Source: an uncultured Armatimonadota bacterium
GTDB taxonomy: Bacteria > Armatimonadota > Fimbriimonadia > Fimbriimonadales > Fimbriimonadaceae
NCBI GenBank assembly: GCA_946478935.1
Contig: CAMLEL010000146.1
Location: 1 to 6,422 of the forward strand
Direction: 5' to 3'
Length of the DNA stretch: 6,422 bases
The translations under genes were made by a program, and so were the position numbers. Shown here one piece after another: positions 2,655-6,422 of this stretch. The notes beneath the pieces are model-generated. The model had not been told where the DNA came from. It saw nothing but the letters and a program-made list of their open reading frames with translations, and did no database searches. The first letter of the stretch is position 1. Every line of letters starts with the position of its first letter.

Positions 2655-3728
2655 ATGCGTCGAGTTTCGATTTTCGTCATCCTCGCACTTGCCTGCCTTG
2701 CGGGAGCACAAGGCGCCTGGCCGCATGCTCAATACGCATCCGAACAGCTCGAGGCGTACCGCAAGCACTATGATGTTCCCGGTATCTCGGTCGCCATTGC
2801 CAAGAACGGCCAGATTATCTTTGCCAAGGGGATTGGCTTTGCCGACCTTGAGAGAAACGTTCCTGTACAAACCAGCGATTCATTTAGGTTGGCATCCGTT
2901 AGCAAGCCCATCACCGCGACCCTGATCTTTGAACTCGCCGAACAGGGCAAGATCAACATCGACGCGCCTGCTCGCCAATACCTTTCAGAACTACCGCCGC
3001 ACCATATCTATCGAGTGCGAGACCTTCTCTGCCACCAGTCCGGCGTCCGTCATTACGGCGCGGACGGCCCCCTCCGGAACTACCCCACGCAAGTCTCGGC
3101 GCTGGCGCGATTTGTGAACGATCCGCTCCTTTTCACCCCCGGCGAAAAGTACAGCTACAGCACCCATGCGTTCACGATTCTCGGGGCTATTATCGAGAAG
3201 GTGACCAAGAAGCCGTATCGAGCCTACGTTGGCGAGCGAATGCATGCTTGGAGCATCGAAGATGTTCGGTGCGAGACCGGAGCAAACTCAAAACGCACGA
3301 AGGTGTACGCGAAGGTCGGCGGGAAGCACAAAGTTATGGAGCGTGACGACCTCTCCTGGAAGTATGCGGGCGGAGGTTACGAGGCTACGGCGATCGGCAT
3401 GTGCAAACTTGGCTCGGCCATCATTGGCGGCAAGATTCTTAAGCCGGAGACCTTGGAAAAAATGTGGGCCGTTCAGAAGCCTCGGACAGGCAACTCGACA
3501 ATGGCACTTGGCTGGACCATCGCCGAGGTCGCTGGGAGCAAGTTCGCAGTGCATGGCGGCTCGCAACTTGGCGCAAACAGCTCGTGGGGTCTCCAGATCG
3601 GTGGTGACATCGTCGTGATGGTTCTTAGCAACCAAAGCGGTCATCACCCAGGGCGGCTGGCGACGTTCCTCGAGGAATTGGCCCAAGCCAAAGGAAGTGA
3701 CAAACTTCCAACCATCAAACTGGATTGA
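2655..3728 (+). CDS. Secreted serine hydrolase, class C beta-lactamase fold
   Basis: This 357-residue protein belongs to the beta-lactamase/penicillin-binding-protein-like hydrolases (PF00144), which attack amide or ester bonds through an acyl-enzyme on serine. The catalytic SxxK is SVSK (S81, K84) in FRLASVSKPITATLIFEL. The second motif is YST (168-170) within TPGEKYSYSTHAF, where YSN is usual. The third is HGG (300-302), replacing KTG as in many esterase-like members. An N-terminal signal peptide (MRR plus hydrophobic 5-18, likely cleaved near 20-25) predicts export to the periplasm or outside. The block after PYRAYV (188-193) lacks the usual PLGM motif and reads ERMHAWSIEDV. The ATG is preceded by a purine-rich GGAGTAGGA (2639-2647). 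The real substrate (peptidoglycan peptides, D-amino-acid peptides, esters or lactams) cannot be told, and calling it an antibiotic-resistance enzyme is not justified. It is followed with a 4-base overlap by a kinase-like gene. Confidence 0.9.
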   Translation: MRRVSIFVILALACLAGAQGAWPHAQYASEQLEAYRKHYDVPGISVAIAKNGQIIFAKGIGFADLERNVPVQTSDSFRLASVSKPITATLIFELAEQGKINIDAPARQYLSELPPHHIYRVRDLLCHQSGVRHYGADGPLRNYPTQVSALARFVNDPLLFTPGEKYSYSTHAFTILGAIIEKVTKKPYRAYVGERMHAWSIEDVRCETGANSKRTKVYAKVGGKHKVMERDDLSWKYAGGGYEATAIGMCKLGSAIIGGKILKPETLEKMWAVQKPRTGNSTMALGWTIAEVAGSKFAVHGGSQLGANSSWGLQIGGDIVVMVLSNQSGHHPGRLATFLEELAQAKGSDKLPTIKLD

Positions 3729-4243
3729 AGGCTCGCCGCGTCTTGGTTTACGGGGTTACCGGTTCAGGCAAAACGACTTTTGCCAAGAAGCTCGCTGAGC
3801 GAACGGGCATTCCGTTTCACGAAGTTGACGCCCTGACCTGGGAGCCCGGATGGGTGGAAGTGCCGGTCGAGCGTCAGATCGCTCGCATTCGTGAGATTTG
3901 TAGTCGTGACCAATGGATTCTGGATAGCGCCTATACCAAGTGGCTTGACATTCCGTTGCAGCAGGCCGATCTCATCATCGCGTTGGATTATTCGCGCGCG
4001 ATTTCATTTACCCGCCTGCTGAAGCGTACAGCTGGCCGAATCTTGGACCAAAAACCCATTTGTAACGGGAATCGCGAGTCTTGGCGACTTGCGCTGTCCC
4101 GTGACTCGATCCTCCTCTGGCACTTTCGAACCTTCGCCCGCAAACGGCGAAGAATCAACGGTTGGATCGGTGAGGGGAGAAACATTATTAGGTTAACGTC
4201 CCCGAAAGATGCCGATACGTTTTTACAGTCGTGCCATCGGTAA
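3725..4243 (+). CDS. P-loop kinase-like protein (adenylate kinase/FlaR-type)
   Basis: The 172-residue protein is a small P-loop NTPase of the group often annotated as DNA topology modulation protein FlaR or adenylate kinase-like. Walker A is GVTGSGKTT (10-18, K16). HEVDALTWEPGW (32-43) is a conserved substrate-side motif of this group. DLIIALD (82-88) is the strand typical of nucleotide kinases, and NRESWRLALSRDSILLWHFRTFARKRRRI (116-144) is an arginine-rich lid-like region. It probably phosphorylates a nucleotide or other small molecule in the cytoplasm; the topology-related name has little support. The only start fitting the frame is TTG at 3725. An in-frame stop lies at 3698-3700, and the TTG overlaps the stop of the preceding hydrolase gene as TTGA. 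No good Shine-Dalgarno site lies close by, so translation is probably coupled to the upstream gene. Confidence 0.85.
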   Translation: MKARRVLVYGVTGSGKTTFAKKLAERTGIPFHEVDALTWEPGWVEVPVERQIARIREICSRDQWILDSAYTKWLDIPLQQADLIIALDYSRAISFTRLLKRTAGRILDQKPICNGNRESWRLALSRDSILLWHFRTFARKRRRINGWIGEGRNIIRLTSPKDADTFLQSCHR

Positions 4244-4265: not shown

Positions 4266-4271
4266 AAATCG

Positions 4272-4280
4272 TGCTAGCAT
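4272..4280 (+). promoter_or_regulatory. Possible extended -10 promoter for the ilv leader
   Basis: TGCTAGCAT resembles an extended -10 element (TGn followed by a hexamer matching TATAAT at four of six positions). Transcription would then begin near 4287, a few bases before the leader ATG at 4293. No convincing -35 box is found 16-18 bases upstream; TTTACA at 4222-4227 is too far. The leader needs a promoter near here unless it is read from the kinase gene, so this is the best candidate but a weak one. Confidence 0.22.
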
Positions 4281-4292
4281 AAGAGTGTGGAG

Positions 4293-4400
4293 ATGAGCAC
4301 GCCACCAGACAATCTCGCAGCGGACCAAGGTTCGTATTCGATCGTCATTGGATCCGCTCTTCTCGTCGTCCTTAGCATTCTCATTCTTGGGCTTACCTAG
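4293..4400 (+). CDS. ilv leader peptide (branched-chain attenuator)
   Basis: A 35-codon ORF running from ATG (4293) to TAG (4398-4400). Its second half is packed with branched-chain residues: of residues 17-34, thirteen are Ile (17, 19, 29, 31), Val (18, 25, 26) or Leu (23, 24, 27, 30, 32, 34). The Leu codons are only CTT and CTC, the Val codons only GTC, and the Ile codons ATC or ATT. A terminator and an alternative hairpin follow directly, and ilvB begins 159 bases after the stop. This is the pattern of the ilv leader peptides that sense charged Ile-, Val- and Leu-tRNA through ribosome stalling; I infer the same role. The ribosome-binding site is modest: AAGAG (4281-4285), seven bases before the ATG. 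A GTG two codons earlier (4287) is an alternative start. The hydrophobic stretch could also be read as a single membrane helix, but the RNA context makes a regulatory leader more likely. Confidence 0.78.
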   Translation: MSTPPDNLAADQGSYSIVIGSALLVVLSILILGLT

Positions 4401-4406
4401 CCGAGA
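4385..4406 (+). promoter_or_regulatory. Possible protector (1:2) hairpin of the attenuator
   Basis: TCTTGG (4385-4390), near the end of the leader ORF, can pair with CCGAGA (4401-4406) as six pairs including one G-U, around a 10-base loop that holds the stop codon. This would occupy the left arm of the antiterminator when no ribosome is translating, so that the terminator forms. The stem is short, so this part of the model is the least certain. Confidence 0.4.
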
Positions 4407-4436
4407 TGGATTGCTAACACAAGCGAGCCCTCTCGG
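4401..4436 (+). promoter_or_regulatory. Antiterminator (2:3) hairpin of the ilv attenuator
   Basis: Bases 4401-4415 pair with 4422-4436 around the 6-base loop AACACA: 12 Watson-Crick pairs, one G-U (4412-4425) and two single mismatches (4407/4430 and 4410/4427). The left arm begins at the base right after the leader stop codon. A ribosome stalled in the Ile/Val/Leu codons would leave it free, while one sitting on the stop codon would cover it. The right arm contains 4426-4436, which is also almost the whole left arm of the terminator, so the two structures exclude each other. Confidence 0.72.
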
Positions 4437-4459
4437 AAAGAAGTCCGAGGGGGCTTTTT
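4426..4459 (+). terminator. Intrinsic terminator of the ilv attenuator
   Basis: AGCCCTCTCGGA (4426-4437) pairs with TCCGAGGGGGCT (4444-4455) as 12 continuous pairs, one of them G-U (4431-4450), around the loop AAGAAG, followed by TTTTT (4455-4459). This is a strong rho-independent terminator. It lies between the leader ORF and ilvB with no other gene ending nearby except the leader, so it is placed to stop transcription before ilvB. It could in principle also end transcripts coming from the kinase gene. Confidence 0.9.
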
Positions 4460-4543
4460 ACTTTGGGTTTGACTTAATAGCTGAAACTAAAGGGCAACGA
4501 CATCGCCGTCGGAACCTGGAGCTCCACCGCCGGAGCGCGAAAA

Positions 4544-4562
4544 CAGGAGGAAATTCGACGTG
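4544..4562 (+). promoter_or_regulatory. Ribosome-binding site and GTG start of ilvB
   Basis: AGGAGG (4545-4550) lies nine bases before GTG (4560-4562) and decides the ilvB start. The encoded N-terminus RSGASIVMEALAREGV aligns naturally with the beginning of other acetohydroxyacid synthases. Between the terminator (4459) and this site, about 85 bases hold no gene that I can support. Two small palindromes (4517-4526 and the 4521-4536 stem) are present there. Confidence 0.8.
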
Positions 4563-6248
4563 CGTTCAGGCGCAAGCATAGTAATGGAAGCTCTCGCCCG
4601 TGAGGGCGTGGACACAATCTTCGGGTATCCGGGCGGTGTGGTCCTGCCCCTTTACGACGAGATGCTGAATTGGCCCGAGGTCAAACACATTCTCGTTCGA
4701 CATGAGCAGTGCGCTGCCCACATGGCCGACGGGTACGCCCGCGCCACGGGAAGAACTGGGGTCTGTTTGGCCACCAGCGGCCCCGGCGCCACCAATTTGG
4801 TAACGGGAATCGCCACGGCAATGATGGACTCGGTGCCGATGGTCGCCATAACCGGCAACGTGAACTCATGGTCCATTGGAAAGGATGCTTTTCAAGAAAC
4901 GGACATCCAGGGCATCACGATTCCGATCACCAAACACAACTATCTGGTCACCAATGTAGACGATCTGCCCGGCGTATTGGCCGAGGCCTTCTACCTTGCG
5001 AACACTGGCCGCAAAGGACCGGTGCTGGTGGATATTCCAAAGGATGTGTTCATCGCCAAGACCGATGCCGAGTTCCCGGTAACGATCGCTCGAAGGGGCT
5101 ACCGGCTCCCTCCGGCTCCAGATCCCGATCAAATCTCAGAAGCCATTCGGCTCATCACCGAATCAGAGAAGCCGGTAGCGATTGCCGGGGCGGGTGTCGT
5201 TTGGTCGAAGGCATTCGACGAACTCCGATACTTCGCTGAGCACGCGGATATCCCGATCATCAATTCACTCCTTGGAATCGGCGGCTTCCCGCGTGATCAT
5301 GAACTCTCGCTGGGAATGATGGGGATGCATGGCGAAGCCGCCGCGACATTGGCGGTACAGGAAGCCGACCTCGTTTTGGGAATCGGTATTCGATTCGATG
5401 ATCGTCTCACCGGAAATACCCGTGCGTTTGCGAAGAACGCCAAGATTGTTCACTTCGACCTTGACCCAAGCGAAGTCGGCAAAACCGTTTCGCCGGTTGC
5501 TTTTGTCATTGGCGACCTCAAAGAAAGCCTCAAGCTTCTGAATCGTGAGTTGCCAGAAAAGCGACATGACGGGTGGCGCGCGCAGATCCGGTCTTGGCAG
5601 CAAAACTATCCGCTCGTCGTGCCACCCGGAAAGTTCCTTTCTCGCCACGTCCTCGATGCACTGAACCGGCACACCGGCGGTGAGGCCATCGTGTCGACTG
5701 ATGTGGGCCAGCATCAAATGTGGGCGGCGCAGTTCATGAAGCAGCGTCATCCATTCAATTGGATTTCGAGCGGAGGATTGGGCACGATGGGCTTTGGCTT
5801 CCCGGCCGCGATGGGCGCAAAGTTTGCTCGGCCCGAATCTGAAGTTTGGGCTGTCGTTGGAGATGGTGGATTCCAGATGACTTTGCAGGAGCTGCAGACG
5901 GCGGTAGAGTACGGGGTGAACGTGAAGATTGCGCTCTTGAACAACGGTTACCTCGGCATGGTGCGCCAGTGGCAGGAGCTGTTTTACGATAATCGGTACA
6001 GCCACGTCGCAATGTCCTCACCAGATTACGGCAAGCTTGCCGAGGCATACGGGGTCAAGTACGTGCGCTGTGAATCCGAGGCAGAGTTGGATGATGCTCT
6101 ATCCTCGGCCAGCGATCATCCCGGACCCGTTCTCTGCGAGTTCCGGGTTGAAATGGAAGAGAACGTGTTTCCGATGGTCCCGGCTGGAGGAAGCAACAGC
6201 GATGTGATCATGGATCCTGCTTTGAGTTCAGTGGTGGGTGCGCGATGA
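4560..6248 (+). CDS. ilvB: Acetohydroxyacid synthase, large catalytic subunit
   Basis: This is the catalytic subunit of acetolactate (acetohydroxyacid) synthase. It condenses two pyruvates to 2-acetolactate, or pyruvate with 2-oxobutyrate to 2-aceto-2-hydroxybutyrate, the first common step to valine, leucine and isoleucine. It uses thiamine diphosphate, Mg2+ and FAD. The 562 residues match the family. The N-terminal domain has FGYPGG (21-26), the ThDP-activating glutamate E49 in VRHEQCAAHMADGYARATG, and SGPGATN (73-79). DAFQETDIQGI and TKHNYLV lie at 109-130. The central FAD-side domain (about 190-330) includes GIGIRFDDRLTGN (274-286). The C-terminal ThDP motif starts at GDGGF (434-438) and ends at NN (461-462), followed by MVRQWQELFY (467-476). 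The end, VFPMVPAGG (536-544), is canonical. The usual GQVP segment reads GNVN (99-102), with Asn at the position of plant Pro197. The stop overlaps the start of ilvN as ATGA. Expression is probably controlled by the attenuator just upstream. Confidence 0.96.
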   Translation: MRSGASIVMEALAREGVDTIFGYPGGVVLPLYDEMLNWPEVKHILVRHEQCAAHMADGYARATGRTGVCLATSGPGATNLVTGIATAMMDSVPMVAITGNVNSWSIGKDAFQETDIQGITIPITKHNYLVTNVDDLPGVLAEAFYLANTGRKGPVLVDIPKDVFIAKTDAEFPVTIARRGYRLPPAPDPDQISEAIRLITESEKPVAIAGAGVVWSKAFDELRYFAEHADIPIINSLLGIGGFPRDHELSLGMMGMHGEAAATLAVQEADLVLGIGIRFDDRLTGNTRAFAKNAKIVHFDLDPSEVGKTVSPVAFVIGDLKESLKLLNRELPEKRHDGWRAQIRSWQQNYPLVVPPGKFLSRHVLDALNRHTGGEAIVSTDVGQHQMWAAQFMKQRHPFNWISSGGLGTMGFGFPAAMGAKFARPESEVWAVVGDGGFQMTLQELQTAVEYGVNVKIALLNNGYLGMVRQWQELFYDNRYSHVAMSSPDYGKLAEAYGVKYVRCESEAELDDALSSASDHPGPVLCEFRVEMEENVFPMVPAGGSNSDVIMDPALSSVVGAR

Positions 6249-6422
6249 GCATCCGTCAACACGCGGTTACCGCGCTCGTTCAAAATGAAGCCGGGACCAT
6301 CAATCGCCTGGTCTCCAACTTCCGTCGACGCGGGTTTTCGCTGGATTCGTTCAATGCAGGCGACTGCGAACAACCAGGCTACTCGCGACTCACACTCTTG
6401 CTCAACGCCGATGACCAGCAGC
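6245..6422 (+). CDS. ilvN: Acetohydroxyacid synthase, small regulatory subunit (partial)
   Basis: The first 59 codons of a gene that runs off the window. The product starts MSIRQHAVTALVQNEAGTINRL and continues with FRRRGFSLDSFNAG (26-39) and SRLTLLL (47-53), the pattern of the N-terminal ACT domain of IlvN/IlvH. In this family the subunit binds the large subunit, raises its activity and carries the valine feedback site. The ligand-loop motif reads NEAGT (14-18), against the usual NEPGV or NxxGv, so feedback behaviour may differ, although that is speculative. The ATG overlaps the ilvB stop codon (ATGA), as expected for coupled synthesis of the two subunits. The C-terminal domain lies outside the window. 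Confidence 0.93.
   Translation, partial: MSIRQHAVTALVQNEAGTINRLVSNFRRRGFSLDSFNAGDCEQPGYSRLTLLLNADDQQ

Follow-up and report, generated by a model that had tools for sequence, protein, structure and literature searches.

Evidence for a ribosome-mediated attenuator and tandem hairpins upstream of ilvB in Fimbriimonadales

The leader preceding ilvBN in a bacterium of the order Fimbriimonadales is very likely a ribosome-mediated transcription attenuator, and very probably one that is ordinary in kind. We base this reading on the conservation of a short ORF, the placement of its control codons, two mutually exclusive stems that both covary, an intrinsic terminator, and the cognate biosynthetic genes downstream, ilvN directly following ilvB in the window (the whole stretch of 6,422 nucleotides that was analyzed; contig CAMLEL010000146.1). 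The novelty lies in the lineage, in the likely leaderless design with its skewed control codons, and in a neighboring pair of hairpins.

Leader Architecture and Proposed Mechanism

The features of the leader region are collected in Table 1. The preliminary description of the window had placed an antiterminator at 4401–4436 with 13 of 15 positions paired, and the fold reproduced this pairing; the stem begins directly after the stop codon, however, and not one base past it as had been described. The terminator, given earlier as 12 pairs at 4426–4455, kept its stem and T run but was found to extend over 4425–4456, with 13 pairs (8 of them G–C), a 6-base loop, and a T run to 4459. Upstream pairing by a protector was likewise found, although it is larger than the 6-bp stem proposed at 4385–4406: when 4370–4436 was folded alone, 4372–4393 paired with 4399–4417 in 18 pairs.

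Table 1. Leader, hairpin, and gene features in the window
Feature	Position	Strand	Description	Basis
Putative extended −10 element	4275..4280	+	TG at 4272–4273; 6 nt before GTG 4287; no good −35	
Leader ORF	4287..4400	+	GTG start, 37 codons, TAG stop 4398–4400; ATG 4293 in frame	
Control region	4338..4397	+	Last 20 sense codons; 13 Leu/Ile/Val, mostly CTT, CTC, GTC, ATT	
Segment 1	4372..4393	+	Putative protector strand; pairs with 4399–4417 when segment 4 is absent from the fold	
Segment 2	4401..4415	+	Antiterminator 5′ strand	
Segment 3	4422..4437	+	Shared strand: 4422–4436 antiterminator, 4425–4437 terminator	
Segment 4	4444..4459	+	Segment 4 proper (4444–4456) plus T-run end of the intrinsic terminator	
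Hairpin H1	4498..4511	+	CGAC-ATCGCC-GTCG	Alignment A1
Hairpin H2	4521..4536	+	GCTCC-ACCGCC-GGAGC	Alignment A1
ilvB ribosome-binding site	4545..4550	+	AGGAGG	SD-like
ilvB	4560..6248	+	Acetolactate synthase large subunit, GTG start	
ilvN	6245..6422	+	Acetolactate synthase small subunit, beginning only; runs off the window	

The region 4400–4460 was folded more stably than any of 200 shuffled sequences (z = −4.23), and the longer region 4270–4465 gave z = −3.53. The best fold of the shorter region contains the antiterminator and draws the T run into another small hairpin, while that of the longer region contains the terminator in its place, indicating that the two states compete.

In the proposed mechanism, RNA polymerase would start at the leader start codon or very close to it, and a ribosome would load at once. 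When charged tRNAs for Leu, Ile, and Val are ample, the ribosome would reach the stop codon and cover segment 2, segments 3 and 4 would form the terminator, and transcription would end near 4459. With Leu, Ile, or Val tRNA in short supply, the ribosome would stall in the control codons and leave segment 2 free to pair with segment 3; the terminator would then not form, and ilvB, ilvN, and the genes downstream would be made. If no ribosome loaded, segment 1 might hold segment 2 and so favor termination.

Conservation of the Leader ORF

To place the window, we scanned for IlvB and kept 80 loci. The nine best belonged to Fimbriimonadaceae, Fimbriimonas, or Armatimonadetes metagenome-assembled genomes (MAGs), at 67–79% identity; between the two phyla suggested earlier, Armatimonadota and Planctomycetota, the scan thus supported the former (order Fimbriimonadales) and not the latter. 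The other 71 loci (L010–L080, mostly Chloroflexota) served as the non-ingroup set. For the ingroup, 113 genomes of the order were searched, and an IlvB match at E ≤ 1e-120 was found in 31, of which 30 became loci L081–L110. One of these, L093, starts at a contig end without upstream sequence, and the remaining 29 relatives together with the window gave 30 leaders. A comparison set of 40 other Armatimonadota was taken from 150 with an IlvB match.

Requiring at least 9 Leu/Ile/Val codons among the last 20, we found a leader ORF in 29 of the 30 ingroup leaders, a count that, like all those across leaders, treats related genomes as independent. The same threshold was passed by 1 of the 40 other Armatimonadota, by 4 of the 71 non-ingroup loci, and by 2 of 150, 6 of 200, and 7 of 355 dinucleotide shuffles; as the counts outside the order match the shuffle rate, they represent the level of chance. 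The single ingroup leader lacking the ORF, L110, also lacks the stems, and its IlvB is just 50% identical. A strict automated search requiring every part of the architecture succeeded in 16 of the 30 ingroup loci and in none of the 40 other Armatimonadota, the 71 non-ingroup loci, or 705 shuffles; among the 14 ingroup loci that it missed, 13 show the ORF and the stems in the alignment. In this sample, the attenuator is confined to one order.

The content of the ORF is strongly biased. In the window, the 13 Leu/Ile/Val codons counted earlier within residues 17–34 are there as claimed. Across the 29 leaders, whose assigned lengths are 31–47 codons, 9–14 of the last 20 codons specify Leu, Ile, or Val, in total 346 of 580 (Leu 199, Ile 74, Val 73); Thr accounts for 22 of the 580, and Phe, Trp, Met, and Tyr together for 4. 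These codons are also placed unevenly, occupying position −13 in 27 leaders, −5 in 25, −2 in 9, and −1 in none. That the control codons end before the stop codon is expected if a stalled ribosome must leave the strand 3′ of the stop free. Judged by position, the geometry of the classical model described earlier was borne out, with segment 2 adjoining the stop codon in the alignment and the last sense codon free of Leu/Ile/Val in all 29 leaders.

Could the switch be read without a translating ribosome, as a riboswitch or a tRNA-sensing T-box, or through an RNA-binding protein? T-boxes control ilv genes in other bacteria. So do ppGpp riboswitches for ilvB elsewhere (PMC10272879). The conserved feature upstream of segment 2, however, is the run of Leu/Ile/Val codons, and a search of the window against Rfam, including the T-box and ppGpp riboswitch models, returned no family at E ≤ 1. 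Twelve of the 30 relative loci were searched likewise at E ≤ 0.5; no match fell in the leaders, the sole one being a tmRNA end away from the leader. We consider such a reader very unlikely.

Synonymous codon choice is skewed as well. The Ile codon is ATT in 65 of 74 cases (88%) in the leaders vs. 25% in ilvB of the same loci, and the Leu codon is CTT in 109 of 199 (55%) vs. 16%, while CTG makes up 9 of the 199 vs. 29% in ilvB. A single tRNA normally reads both ATT and ATC, and differential charging of isoacceptors would therefore not alone explain the preference for ATT; part of the bias may serve the pairing of the leader with segment 2. The probable leaderless start and the strong choice of CTT and ATT make these leaders a natural setting in which to test whether, as theory has it, an attenuator depends on which synonymous codons it uses (PMC1183508).

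When 16 pairs of related leaders from seven groups were compared, differences at the first, second, and third codon positions numbered 115, 87, and 189, the third being favored, but 170 of the 281 changed codons were nonsynonymous; as most changes alter the residue, it is the content of the leader that is kept rather than its sequence. These patterns bear on a different explanation, that the product of the ORF is a small membrane protein with a single pass, whose transcript the terminator simply ends. Residues 16–34 are indeed hydrophobic enough for a membrane helix, and the closest relatives, L083 and L086, have the N-terminal TPPDN in common with the window leader. Membrane helices nevertheless contain Phe, Trp, Met, and Tyr far above the 4 in 580 seen in the last 20 codons of the 29 leaders; moreover, it is Leu/Ile/Val content and not sequence that is kept by eye, the synonymous codon choice is strongly skewed, and the strand 3′ of the stop codon covaries with segment 3. 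Together, these observations leave a membrane protein extremely unlikely.

Covariation of the Two Stems

The conserved ORF and the stem covariation that the preliminary description proposed to look for in related genomes are both present. In the stem alignment (A3, 29 sequences), 94.1% of the terminator cells are paired and 11 of its 14 pairs show compensatory changes, with none of 500 shuffles as high by any measure. In the antiterminator, 88.8% of the cells are paired and 5 of 8 pairs show compensatory changes. None of 500 shuffles matched it in percentage paired, in the number of cells with two-sided change, or in covariation score, while 12 of the 500 reached its five two-sided pairs and 37 its number of pair types. 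Sliding the register lowered the percentage paired and the score in both stems, although slid versions of the antiterminator kept up to four two-sided pairs. RNAalifold found the terminator in A3 unaided, with 13 pairs, 11 of them with two-sided change; the antiterminator is absent from its result, as a single structure cannot show the competing stem too.

Further support for both stems came from swapping the partner strands between species. The mean pairing energy weakened from −18.2 to −14.5 kcal/mol for segments 2 and 3 and from −27.8 to −20.7 kcal/mol for segments 3 and 4. In both stems, the own pairing was stronger than the mean of the swapped partners in 29 of 29 leaders, and in 20,000 permutations the observed value was never attained, which also held for a thinned set of 21. 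In all 29 leaders, pairing is more stable between the terminator arms than between those of the antiterminator, and the weak pairing of segments 2 and 3 in L108 has an energy of −8.9 kcal/mol. A third explanation is a plain terminator of the ATPase-like gene that lies upstream on the same strand and ends at 4243, accompanied by a chance ORF. It is hardly credible, because the window and 28 relatives all combine the ORF with terminator and antiterminator ahead of ilvB and both stems covary, whereas an antiterminator would then have no reason to do so.

For the protector, the differences are smaller. The mean probability of segment 2 pairing upstream in the 29 leaders was 0.75, compared with 0.66 in shuffled leaders, 0.67 when ilvB usage supplied the synonymous codons (Wilcoxon P = 5e-5; 24 of 29 higher), and 0.71 when synonymous codons were permuted (P = 0.04; 19 of 29 higher). 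Such a slight excess over controls weakly suggests a protector across the relatives.

Upstream of leuA in 13 genomes, no comparable Leu-rich leader with a terminator was seen by eye, the highest Leu/Ile/Val counts being 9 of 20 (L201) and 8 (L203); upstream of trpE in 11 genomes, no comparable Trp-rich leader with a terminator was seen by eye.

A Probably Leaderless Message

The leader ORF had first been described as starting at ATG 4293 and running for 35 codons to the TAG. Its frame and stop stand, but comparison of the sequences makes GTG 4287, 6 nt upstream, the likely true start, because L083 has ACG at the site of the window's ATG and GTG at the homologous upstream site. Aligned by eye, GTG 4287 also coincides with the start codons of L082, L083, L084, L086, and L089.

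A TAnnnT box ends 5–14 nt before the assigned start in 27 of 29 leaders, with a TG extension in 10; in mono-shuffled 60-mers, the box was found in a mean of 4.7 and a maximum of 12 of 29. These starts were set by hand, L096 and L099 being doubtful cases, and the figure of 27 is a favorable one, as the −10 box was in view when the choice was made. An SD-like sequence precedes 3 of the 29 leaders vs. 18 of the 29 ilvB genes, the latter number probably being low because the ilvB reference codon, the one aligned with the ilvB start codon of the window, is not always the true start. From the position of the −10 box, the message is probably leaderless. Some actinobacterial ilv leaders are similar: transcription of Corynebacterium glutamicum ilvBNC starts one nucleotide from the leader start codon (PMC11857589, PMC10272879), and IlvL of Streptomyces lividans is reported to be leaderless (PMC8079986).

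Tandem Hairpins before the ilvB Ribosome-Binding Site

Two hairpins, H1 and H2, with six-base loops (RNNGNN) closed by a C–G pair, follow the terminator and precede the ribosome-binding site of ilvB. We aligned them in 21 of the 29 leaders (A1), leaving out eight with no clear H1–H2 pair (L089, L096, L099, L100, L103, L107, L108, and L109); the hairpins for A1 were prefiltered for G at the fourth loop position. In A1, 93.5% of the cells are paired and 5 of 10 pairs show a compensatory change. The percentage and the score were reached by none of 500 shuffles, and the five two-sided pairs by 10 of the 500; one slid register reached four. RNAalifold predicts both hairpins.

All 21 H1 loops carry G as their fourth base, as do at least 90% of the H2 loops, in rows that were partly chosen for this base. 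Without the filter, G was found at position 4 in 20 of 21 six-base loops vs. 9 of 25 in ilvB coding stretches. Among the 54 unfiltered best stems, 21 have six-base and 25 four-base loops, partly because the loop ends can pair.

In searches of 11 whole genomes with 150 candidates scored in each, nine matches scored at least 30.6 bits, all of them before ilvB and all from the model's own members, and the next scored 24.5; the genomes G022 and G060 had no such match. Model R1, applied with strict filters to 291 Armatimonadota genomes (21 candidates each), gave 29 matches at E ≤ 0.1. Twenty of these lie before ilvB and are the 20 relatives from which R1 was built, with no new ilvB case; the other nine are fewer than expected by chance (29), and the one inspected, L189, lies inside a coding sequence. 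No tandem hairpins were found before ilvB in L010–L080 or in the 40 other Armatimonadota, and those in the window and in 12 relative loci matched no Rfam family. As far as seen, then, the tandem hairpins are associated with ilvB, and they are possibly a new class of regulatory RNA.

The position of the hairpins before the ribosome-binding site suggests that they act in translational control. CsrA and RsmE target ANGGAN hexaloops, and a CsrA site is laid out as two hexaloop hairpins near the ribosome-binding site. The hairpins found here resemble such sites in being two C–G-closed six-base-loop hairpins near the ribosome-binding site but differ in that GGA, the CsrA core (PMC4894983), is absent from 40 of the 42 A1 loops, the exceptions noted by eye being H2 of L091 and of L106. 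We therefore rejected CsrA as the reader of the loops; a CsrA gene was found in 15 of 15 genomes searched. A reading of the hairpins as DNA operators is opposed by their G–U pairs and varying stems.

We tentatively propose, with rather less than even confidence, that ilvB of Fimbriimonadales may be under two serial RNA controls: a leaderless attenuator whose control codons have been selected for slow reading as well as for complementarity to segment 2, and then a cis-acting RNA class not described before, the tandem C-[RNNGNN]-G hairpins ahead of the ribosome-binding site, at which translation of readthrough messages would be gated by a ligand or a dimeric protein.

Relation to Known Attenuators

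The leaders of ilvBN and ilvGMEDA in Escherichia coli have the same mechanism and operon class. For the other systems, the comparison follows the cited descriptions. By its description, the ilvBNC attenuator of C. glutamicum (the ilvB-II motif of Corynebacterium) is alike in its Leu/Ile/Val ORF, its strand-sharing antiterminator and terminator, and its operon, and differs in that its leader has 15 codons while those of Fimbriimonadales, as assigned, have 31–47 with 9–14 Leu/Ile/Val in the last 20. In S. lividans (ilvL) and Mycobacterium tuberculosis (ilvB1), ilvB is likewise controlled by leader-peptide attenuation, but in another phylum and with a much shorter control stretch than in the Fimbriimonadales leaders (LVVI in M. 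tuberculosis). The model for M. tuberculosis ilvB1 has a ribosome at the stop codon masking the antiterminator (PMC13236596).

The ilvB-OMG motif, which occurs in various phyla, and the Leptospira ilvB motif each place a short ORF with many branched-chain codons ahead of ilvB (PMC10272879); going by the descriptions, their peptides are set apart by being rich also in Thr, which is infrequent in the present leaders (22 of 580). Naville and Gautheret (2010) knew of leader-peptide systems only in Proteobacteria and Actinobacteria, besides the Firmicutes case of that study (PMC2965389). Further Firmicutes cases come from Staphylococcus and Listeria, and leader-peptide attenuation has been predicted for ilvB in other phyla (PMC10272879). 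A literature search for attenuation or leader peptides in Armatimonadetes and for Fimbriimonas ilvB, under that phylum name and not Armatimonadota, gave no earlier report, and one combining Armatimonadetes, RNA motif, ilvB, and attenuator gave no Armatimonadetes report among the matches listed. A case in Armatimonadota with covariation widens the range of leader-peptide attenuation, known mainly from Proteobacteria and Actinobacteria.

Gene Context

In four relatives whose neighborhoods were examined, ilvD is nearby in all four (L171, L172, L175, and L177) and ilvA in two (L172 and L175); ilvC is nearby in the three scored for it (L171, L175, and L177). An ORF on the opposite strand lies between ilvC and ilvD in L171.

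No IlvB match at E ≤ 1e-120 was found in 82 of the 113 genomes of the order, which may mean that the synthesis of branched-chain amino acids has been widely lost or else that the MAGs are incomplete. Among the matches listed, IlvB of the window is up to 56% identical to proteins of Chloroflexota and up to 53% to those of other Armatimonadota; being about equally close to both, it may indicate that the ilv operon was replaced or acquired in this lineage.

Elsewhere in the window, 2655–3728 encodes a serine beta-lactamase family protein (PF00144) whose N terminus looks like a signal peptide by eye. Positions 906–2063 encode a radical SAM protein with a CofH/MqnC C-terminal domain, the latter pointing to a product of the futalosine or F420 kind.
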